From Natronospira sp. (lineage in GTDB: Bacteria > Pseudomonadota > Gammaproteobacteria > Natronospirales > Natronospiraceae): a stretch of DNA of 64,000 nucleotides. The notes under the pieces are model-generated. The model saw only the letters and a list, made by a program, of their open reading frames with translations, had not been told where the DNA came from and searched no databases. The stretch lies in contig PWMQ01000072.1 of NCBI GenBank assembly GCA_003558125.1, positions 124,001 to 188,000 on the forward strand. The letters are read 5' to 3'. How positions within the stretch are numbered: position 1 is the first letter of the stretch; the number at the start of each line of letters is the position of its first letter. The position numbers and the translations under genes are program-made. Shown piece after piece: positions 18,648 to 64,000 of this stretch.

Positions 18648-18690
18648 GGAGCCTCTGATCAATCCATTAATGGATTGATCAGAGGCTCCC
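18647..18690. repeat. 44-bp perfect palindrome, member of dispersed inverted-repeat family
   Basis: Bases 18647-18690 are perfectly self-complementary (each arm starts GGGAGCCTCTGATCAATC and the centre is CCATT/AATGG). The first base is the last base of the aminotransferase stop codon. Each arm matches the end of the 361-bp element at 63266-63626 with a few changes, so this looks like two element ends joined head to head. No T-tract follows, but in RNA it would form a very stable hairpin and could end or protect the gnnAB transcript. Confidence 0.85.
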
Positions 18691-32037: not shown

Positions 32038-32068
32038 GGAACCTCTGATTAATTCATTCGCACCCGCA
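32038..32068. repeat. Solo end of the dispersed inverted-repeat element
   Basis: These 31 bases match the left end of the 361-bp element (63266-63296) with one difference (A for G at 32061 region). They start GGAACCTCTGATTAATTC, one base after the HDOD stop codon. No opposite end is found before pckG, so it is a solo or decayed copy. Confidence 0.8.
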
Positions 32069-32107
32069 GCAGGGCCCGGCCCATCGTTACAGCTTGCCAA
32101 TATTGGG

Positions 32108-62041: not shown

Positions 62042-62389
62042 TCAGCGTTTGAACAGTGTTGTCCAGTCATCGGCCTGAAAGCCAACCCGGAGAGTGCCGT
62101 TCTGGTTCAGCACCGGGCGTTTGATGATGGTGGGGTTGGCGACAAAGACGGCCGCGTCACCCTCGTTGGCCCGGTCCTTGTCTTTGTCAGTCAGCTTGCG
62201 CCAACTCGGACCGCGACGGTTGATCAGCTTGTCACTGCCGATTTCATCCAGCCAGCGATTGACCATGGCATCATCCAGGCCGTCCTTGCGCAGATCATGC
62301 CAGCCGTGGTTGATGCCCTGCTCGTCCAGCCAGCGGCGCGCCTTGCGGCAGGTATCGCAGTTGTGAATGCCGTAGAGGGTGATGCTCAT
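62042..62389 (-). CDS. yffB: ArsC/Spx-family protein YffB
   Basis: 115 aa. Thioredoxin-like fold with the single-cysteine CDTCRKAR N-terminus ([15 protein letters not shown]) and the RP-x-L motif (IIKRPVL). It is a glutathione-linked reductase-like protein of unclear substrate. Conserved beside dapE/dapD in gammaproteobacteria. ATGA overlap with dapD. Confidence 0.92.
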
Positions 62390-63210
62390 TCAGCGCTCCT
62401 GAGCAGTTCATTGATGCCCACCTTGGCACGGGTGGCGGCATCCACGCGCTTGACGATGATGGCGGCATACAGGCTGTGGCTGCCGTCCTTTGCGGGCAGG
62501 GTGCCGGGCACCACCACCGACCCGGCCGGCACACGGCCACGAAGGATCTCGCCGCTTTCCCGATCATAGATGCGCGTGCTCTGGCCAAGATACACCCCCA
62601 TGCTGATCACCGAGCCCTCTTCGACGATCACCCCTTCAACCACTTCCGAGCGGGCACCGATGAAGCAGTTGTCCTCGATAATGGTAGGCGTGGCCTGCAA
62701 GGGTTCGAGCACGCCCCCGATTCCCACGCCCCCGGACAGGTGCACATTTTTGCCAATCTGGGCGCAGGACCCGACCGTCGCCCAGGTATCCACCATGGTC
62801 CCGGAACCCACCCAGGCGCCGATATTGATATAGGAGGGCATGAGCACGGCACCCTTGGCCACATGAGCCCCGGCGCGTACCGTCGCCGGCGGTACCACCC
62901 GCACACCGTCGCGTCTAAAGTCAGCTTCCTCATAGTCGGCATGCTTGAGCGGTACCTTGTCGAAGAAACGGGTATAGCCGCCGTCGATCACCCTGTTGTC
63001 ACGCAGACGAAAGGAAATGAGCACGGCCTTTTTCAGCCATTCATTGACCACCCACTGACCATCCTGCTTTTCCGCCACCCGGGCCTCGCCCGAGTCCAGC
63101 ATGCCAAGCGCCTGATCCACTGCCTCGATCACATCCCGGTCCTCCTTTCCCGGGCCGATTTCGGCACGCTTCTCGAAGGCTTGTTCAATGATTGACTTCA
63201 GTTCTGCCAT
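62386..63210 (-). CDS. dapD: Tetrahydrodipicolinate N-succinyltransferase
   Basis: 274 aa. It makes N-succinyl-2-amino-6-oxopimelate from succinyl-CoA. The left-handed beta-helix of hexapeptide repeats is visible ([23 protein letters not shown], then [33 protein letters not shown]). The N-terminal helical domain is [21 protein letters not shown] 63210; overlaps yffB by 4 bp. Confidence 0.96.
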
Positions 63211-63265
63211 GATTTGGATCCTGTTCTGTTTGCTGGTAGTTCGGTGCTGGGTTTTGGCGTTATAG

Positions 63266-63626
63266 GGAACCTCTGATTAATTCATTCGCGCCCGCAGTTG
63301 GCGCTGAGAGCGTCTGATTCAAGGCGCATTGCGCAGCACAGTAGCCTCTGCGCTACGGGCAAGCAATGCAACGCAGAAGCAGGCGCTCTCAGCGCCAACC
63401 CCTTGTGGGCCAGAGGGATTTTCCCTCTCGTCTTCGTTGTTCGGCTCATCCCTGAGCCTCACCCCTCCCTTCGGTCGGGGCCTCGCGCAGAGCGCGAGTC
63501 CAAATACGTTCCCGACGCATTTGTGCTCCTCGCTCATGTAGCACAGCGGCTACACTACGCTCGTCGCGCCTCGCGAGAGGAAAAATCCCGTTGGCTGCGG
63601 GCGCGAATGAATTGATCAGAGGTTCC
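63266..63626. mobile_element. 361-bp inverted-repeat element (MITE-like), structured interior, no transposase
   Basis: Ends GGAACCTCTGATTAATTC (63266-) and the complementary right end finishing at GGTTCC (63621-63626) match over 31 bp with one difference. Inside is a nested hairpin: 15-bp stem 63298-63312 with 63384-63398, then GCATTGC (63326-63332) with GCAATGC (63363-63369), then GTAGC/GCTAC at the tip. Further hairpins are GGCTCA/TGAGCC (63443-63458) and CTCGCGC/GCGCGAG (63482-63498). No convincing coding frame; target duplication is not evident. Relatives are at 18647 and 32038. Confidence 0.8.
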
Positions 63627-63630
63627 TTAG

Positions 63631-63673: not shown

Positions 63674-64000
63674 CTATTTTATCAGTCTTTTGACGCCATC
63701 TAGGAGTCGCGGGACATTGAAGTTAATCAATATCCATAGGGGTGGCCTGATAATCTCAGGTAACTGAGCACCTGTGCAGTATGCACAGGCATCAGTTTTT
63801 CGACGCTCTTGAGCTCCAAAATCAGTTTGTTTTCTACAAGCAGGTCAATCCGGTATCCGGATTCAAGTGCTGTACCCTTGTAGTCCACAGGTAATTGTAT
63901 CTGGCGAAAAAAATTCAGTTCGGCGCGCGAAAGCTCGTAAGCGAGTGCCTGTTCGTAAGCACTCTCAAGCAAGCCTGGCCCGAGCACACGATGCACCTCG
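63674..64000 (-). pseudogene. GxxExxY-family (PD-(D/E)XK-like) protein, frameshifted, 5' end outside window
   Basis: The visible frame has GPGLLESAYEQALAYEL, which holds the family's G-x-x-E-x-x-Y. It continues with YRIDLLVENKLILELKSVE (the D...ExK nuclease-like core) and stops at 63727 after SGHPYGY. In the next frame, downstream of the stop, the expected family end is intact: ILINFNVPRLLDGVKRLIK to the TAG at 63674-63676. One missing base near 63735 would restore a full gene. So it is a recent pseudogene, unless there is a sequencing error. Function of the family is unproven. Confidence 0.75.

Follow-up and report, generated by a model that had tools for sequence, protein, structure and literature searches.

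The 361-bp inverted-repeat segment at 63266-63626 of the window (the whole 64,000-nucleotide stretch of Natronospira DNA analysed here) is a multi-copy, non-autonomous mobile DNA element that carries no gene of its own and in which two elements are nested. It recurs with a constant architecture, its TIRs match IS5-type transposons in two lineages, it is flanked by YTAR-type sequences, its stems covary and its core is conserved. Most likely, it represents a family of IS5-type MITEs with a conserved double-hairpin core that is recognised when the DNA is single-stranded or forms a cruciform. The full explanation favoured here, a MITE-type element mobilised in trans by an IS5-type transposase, bearing a hairpin pair recognised by a protein and stems maintained by both repair and selection, is given a probability of roughly 0.6.

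The preliminary description treated the 361 bp as a single unit. It is in fact a host element of about 275 bp split by an 86-bp repeat at about 63440-63525 (Table 1). The matching ends, put there at 31 bp with one difference, pair over 32 bp, all but one of them matched (63266-63297 / 63595-63626), and form the outer stem P1, and the perfect 15-bp stem base lies exactly where it had been placed, at 63298-63312 / 63384-63398. The strong structure ascribed to the interior is evident from the fold of the whole region, at -214.5 kcal/mol compared with -137 ± 6 for dinucleotide shuffles (z -13; z -12 for the other strand), and from the compensatory changes that each pair of the hairpin model shows across Proteobacteria. 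The packed, nested hairpins are likewise real, but they are not a loose set: the order is TIR, hairpin A, mini-hairpin, inverted hairpin B, TIR, so that two inverted hairpins of about 104 nt and a 3-bp mini-hairpin are enclosed by the 32-bp TIRs. A covariance model built from hairpin A alone (R1) matches A and B convergently, 3-5 nt apart, and opposite-strand R1 matches occupy the place of hairpin B in own-genus and other copies (L042, L048, L016, L037, L155 and others). The loop of the mini-hairpin is usually CTNCGG or its complement CGNAGG, in either orientation, in nearly all of 39 loops. The element has no coding capacity, in agreement with the absence of a transposase or convincing open reading frame noted at the outset. 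Larger palindromes surround the element in three copies (L033, L036, L016), an example being GGCGGGTTGGTGGGGGCGTGCCCGG, which pairs across it.

Table 1. Positions of the element, its parts and its neighbours in the window.
Feature	Position	Strand	Basis
dapD	62386..63210	-	Pfam THDPS_N_2, 3e-27
Left flank ATAG, imperfect YTAR-type target duplication	63262..63265	+	sequence
Left TIR, outer stem P1, GGAACCTCTGATTAATTCATTCGCGCCCGCAG	63266..63297	+	pairs with 63595-63626; ends as in the IS5-family IS of sister genome G001
Hairpin A, 20-bp variable stem and conserved core ATTCAAGGCGCATTGCGCAGCACAGTAG..CTACGGGCAAGCAATGCAACGCAGAAG	63296..63401	+	covariance model R1, 118.9 bits; covariation
Mini-hairpin CCC-TTGT-GGG, between A and B	63400..63409	+	found in this position in almost all of 39 relatives
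Hairpin B, inverted homologue of A, 22-bp stem GCCAACGGGATTTTCCCTCTCG, interrupted by element C	63410..63594	-	R1 opposite-strand matches; uninterrupted copies
Element C, separate 86-bp structured repeat in the B core at the junction CTTCGTTG/CTCC	63440..63525	+	absent from L002, L003, L004; solo copies in G001, G000, G002
Right TIR, outer stem P1, CTGCGGGCGCGAATGAATTGATCAGAGGTTCC	63595..63626	+	pairs with left TIR
Right flank TTAG (YTAR)	63627..63630	+	sequence
PDDEXK_3 (GxxExxY-type) gene adjoining the element	63727..64000	-	
Single TIR copy without partner, remnant	32038..32069	+	sequence comparison
Solo 42-bp palindrome, same TIR type, no hairpin core, ends GGAGCCTCTGATCAAT	18648..18689	+	sequence comparison

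Blastn, suggested in the preliminary description as a check for copies, detects about ten related copies within the genome of the window itself (G000); further copies occur in two genomes of the same genus and one of the same family. The comparable own-genome copies are all about 275 bp long, and the best of them match the query at 1-177 and 259-361, with the middle missing; L002, L003 and L004 are uninterrupted 275-bp copies. The insert, element C, is a multi-hairpin repeat of about 86 bp with copies of its own (L056-L075); its boundary is placed to within 2 bp, with TG on either side. A dozen of its copies lie in the sister genome G001, mostly inside (TCGTTG)n hexamer arrays, and others are found near tRNA genes in G000 and G002. 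Its identification as a GA-cis RNA was rejected: the score of 20.3 falls below the cut-off of 34.7, and the resemblance does not recur above threshold in the other copies of element C.

The element sits between dapD and a PDDEXK_3 gene, upstream of dapD as originally stated. At the level of gene neighbourhood, the dapD and PDDEXK_3-type genes appear adjacent without it in the relative G002, and the relatives examined have no element at this site. In G000, L004 occupies the pilT-pilU spacer, which is element-free in three relatives, again at gene-neighbourhood level; a base-exact empty site was not obtained, the intergenic DNA of the relatives being too diverged. L004 itself (G000 C77:9783-10057) lies directly 3′ of the stop codon of what we take, from reading the sequence, to be pilT, before a presumed pilU, and the TAG stop is contained in its CTAG flank. 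Elsewhere in G000, a contig end (C52:27184-27413, L007) is a perfect inverted repeat, host flanks included. This copy was judged a probable assembly artefact at the contig end and was not accepted as a true element.

The TIRs link the element to IS5-type transposons. GGAACCTCTGATTAATTC occurs about 38 times in G000 with at most three mismatches, against none for a reversed-pattern control, and some of these copies are TIR-only palindromes of 34-63 bp flanked by YTAR. Such solo palindromes indicate that the core is not strictly needed, unless they are deletion remnants. In G001, the same ends bracket a 1178-bp IS5-family IS that is flanked by TTAG/CTAG and encodes a 320-aa DDE_Tnp_1/DUF772 transposase. 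G239 provides an independent second case: its elements have GGAAACACTGATTAATG ends and coexist with a resident IS5-type IS of about 1.2 kb that ends in GGAAACACTGATCAATG...ATTAAATCAGTGTTTCC and encodes a 328-aa transposase 48% identical to that of G001. The TIR of the element thus matches a resident IS5-type transposon in two lineages. This match is not general, as a PF01609 transposase was not found in the complete genomes G285 and G378 although each holds several elements; the mobiliser must be lost or different there. At least ten dissimilar kinds of TIR are found, differing by host (e.g. GGAAGGTCTGCACGAATAG, TGTCCTGTCACACG, TACTCTTTCAAGG, GGGCCTGTTGCCG, AACCCGGCAAGGG and AACCTATCTCATAATC).

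YTAR is a known target motif of IS5 (PMC10359306). It is present on at least one side in 43 of 53 hand-scored copies and on both sides in 32; among about 85 elements the ends are YTAR or CTAG, both sides often being identical. The window copy has ATAG/TTAG, and YTAR flanks are absent in several own-genus copies with diverged P1 (L033, L042, L045, L048). Mobilisation in trans by an IS5-type transposase is probable. The multiple copies, TIRs in common with a transposon of the IS5 family, flanks of YTAR type and the equivalent gene neighbourhood of relatives, which lacks the element, bear out the non-autonomous mobile element proposed in the preliminary description.

The architecture extends far beyond this genus. 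Of 369 genomes sampled from the class, R1 detects it in 57 (about 15%; 46 of 271 genera), usually in several copies each, and R1 matches occur in 31 of 398 genomes sampled from the phylum, other classes included. Named hosts are the Gammaproteobacteria MAG bin397, plasmids of Azotobacter chroococcum and Pseudomonas aeruginosa, Halomonas, Variovorax (beta) and Terrarubrum (alpha). Delimited by the P1 palindrome, the length is mostly 262-285 bp in about 85 elements. An exact-core string scan of 85,000 species genomes (GTDB contigs) gave a single match, in bin397, and the window copy matched nothing in plasmid and phage collections; diverged relatives used as queries in these collections matched Azotobacter, P. 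aeruginosa, Halomonas, Variovorax and Terrarubrum. By its structure, the element can be followed across many genera and no fewer than three classes, although little of its sequence is left, which is why sequence searches miss it.

Pairing is maintained across this divergence. Among 145 distinct hairpins, 94.4% of cells are paired and two-sided changes are seen in 36 of 36 pairs (0/500 shuffles), versus 33-41% pairing in slid control versions of the same set. For the own genus plus bin397 alone, 97.5% of cells are paired, with both-sided changes in 25 of 36 pairs (0/500 shuffles). Stems already differ strongly between own-genus copies and are unrelated in sequence between genomes, with pairing kept and core bases fixed; the covariation looked for at the outset, changes on both sides of stems that still pair, is thus present across copies. 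In 77 non-redundant hairpins, the information content is 1-1.9 bits in core columns and 0.1-0.5 bit in most stem columns, the former values being somewhat inflated because R1, which selected the matches, contains the core. Conserved core positions are partly unpaired, including A-A and C-A-A-G, and AAG / CAA bulges and a GCnG / CAAG internal loop are conserved across classes.

Conservation of the hairpin pair across Proteobacteria, while stems and TIRs are replaced, argues for a function of the pair itself, over and above TIR recognition. Tentatively, this can be taken further. The double-hairpin core, and not the TIR, might be the long-lived heritable unit, a Proteobacteria-wide structured mobile DNA that rides different transposons by exchanging ends and whose bulged cores are recognised by a putative dedicated protein (or serve at the RNA level); this extension falls somewhat short of even odds.

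A different reading is that of a mobile structured RNA, transcribed and functional in its folded form (double hairpin, UNCG-type mini-loop), for example by protecting or regulating neighbouring mRNAs. It is unlikely, despite the strong covariation, a mini-hairpin that, on one of its strands, reads C(UNCG)G in almost every one of 39 loops, and a preference for G.T over A.C (84 versus 16 in 67 non-redundant hairpins in core orientation; 33 versus 14 once the hot-spot stem positions 6-9 are set aside). A single functional RNA should show opposite wobble polarities in A and B, whereas the same polarity is expected of single-stranded DNA from each strand, or of transcripts from both. The polarity is in fact the same for both, although they lie on opposite strands and the core-oriented strand differs between them. 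The mini-loop, moreover, is found both ways round, and the complementary form, CGNAGG, would match a known type of stable DNA loop. Nor is there any gene-orientation or 3′-end bias among element sites (35 tandem, 12 convergent and 12 divergent by a simple ORF heuristic); a transcription terminator was rejected on the same counts, as convergent bias is absent. At the Rfam gathering threshold, no family covers the hairpins of the window and 20 relatives, and these sequences together with the copies of element C return just an unrelated t44 RNA and tRNAs. Of the mobile structured RNA first suggested, the structure is strongly supported, by its covariation, and the RNA is less supported: the Rfam threshold is not reached, orientation bias is lacking, and the wobble polarity corresponds to one hairpin per strand. 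Equal polarity on both strands, a mini-loop in either orientation and the lack of a terminator-like bias together favour a DNA-level role of the hairpins. The T.G pairs cluster at stem positions 6-8 from the core, with T 5′, and are found at position 6 in 22 of 67 hairpins; these hot spots could be a conserved feature instead of wobble tolerance.

Covariation by itself is weak proof of RNA where the arms of a palindrome can copy each other, and such copying is seen here. Arm divergence is 0.04-0.07 within elements versus 0.20-0.33 between them (two groups; 0/10000 permutations), and in L031 (G002 C1:100330) one arm of the hairpin A core is an exact copy of the other, a natural template-switch event. 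Concerted arms and this conversion show that template-switch repair operates, and part of the covariation probably stems from it. One could then regard the element as a passive IS5-derived MITE with a functionless core, all of its covariation arising from palindrome repair. We consider this slightly less probable again than a mobile RNA, because repair removes asymmetric bulges and yet the AAG / CAA bulges and GCnG / CAAG loop persist across classes; the length and the order of A, mini-hairpin and B are also constant under different TIRs. Repair does not account for these persisting bulges, and our reading is that repair and selection for folding both act on the stems.

That the element is REP/REPIN-like and is mobilised through single-stranded hairpins by a Y1 (RAYT) transposase is very improbable: two inverted hairpins with compensatory stems do resemble REPINs (PMC3116915), REP dimers inside longer palindromes are described (PMC3733652), and a RAYT is present in the own genome, but the repeats on either side of that RAYT are its own (GTAGGAGCGG...CCGCGAT) and not the element, 77 non-redundant hairpins show near-random foot positions and no conserved GTAG/CGTC foot tag, and the TIRs and YTAR flanks fit a DDE transposase. 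Within this genome, the RAYT is ruled out as mobiliser by the REPs that it carries. Locus L053 (G000 C27:1-1978) encodes a RAYT-type Y1 transposase of 165 aa, with a REP family of its own (GTAGGAGCGGATTYATCCGCGAT) on its flanks.

According to the preferred reading, that of a trans-mobilised MITE-type element, a unit of about 275 bp would have inserted once at a YTAR-type site between dapD and the PDDEXK_3 gene, to be split later by the 86-bp repeat. An IS5-family DDE transposase encoded elsewhere would cut and join at the TIRs and duplicate the YTAR target. Each strand, when single-stranded or extruded as a cruciform, would most likely offer one hairpin in recognisable orientation. A putative dimeric protein, the candidate partner of the core, would then, as judged most likely, bind both cores and aid transposition or replication of the element. 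Complementarity of the stem arms would be kept partly by arm-to-arm templated repair and partly by selection for folding. Small non-coding repeats tend to be regarded as debris peculiar to one genome; here, an architecture of constant length can be traced across classes. If its core is recognised by a protein, the element would be a parasite of transposons that keeps its structure while exchanging the ends that transposases recognise.

No description of the element was found in the open-access literature searched. It is apparently an uncatalogued new variant of MITE, although copies in some species may already be named. REPINs are about 100 bp long. With them and with BIMEs (inverted REP pairs), the element shares two inverted imperfect hairpins, compensatory stem changes, conserved motifs and a proposed recognition as single-stranded DNA; it differs in its length of about 275 bp, a motif at the hairpin apex instead of a GTAG/CGTC foot, DDE-type TIRs and the lack, in the own genome, of a RAYT link. 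IS5-family MITEs that target YTAR are similar in being gene-less, intergenic and multi-copy, with YTAR flanks and 15-30 bp TIRs shared with IS5-type IS. The conserved, covarying double-hairpin interior, common across classes under unrelated TIRs, sets the element apart from them, and the accessible part of a MITE review mentions no such shared interior (PMC10969869). REP dimers in long palindromes (GTAG-15, CGTC-1) also place a hairpin pair in mid-palindrome, but their outer palindrome, as described in PMC3733652, is one target sequence per species, whereas that of the present element is a transposon TIR, fixed in length, which varies with the host and ends in YTAR. TIRtrons and TIR repeats, in the same source, are likewise abundant palindromic TIR families unrelated to REPs; they flank Y1 transposases, whereas the two TIR matches found here are DDE transposons, a distinction drawn from their description that leaves room for overlap in some species (PMC3733652). 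In organisation, the closest relatives of the element are REPINs and REP dimers in palindromes.
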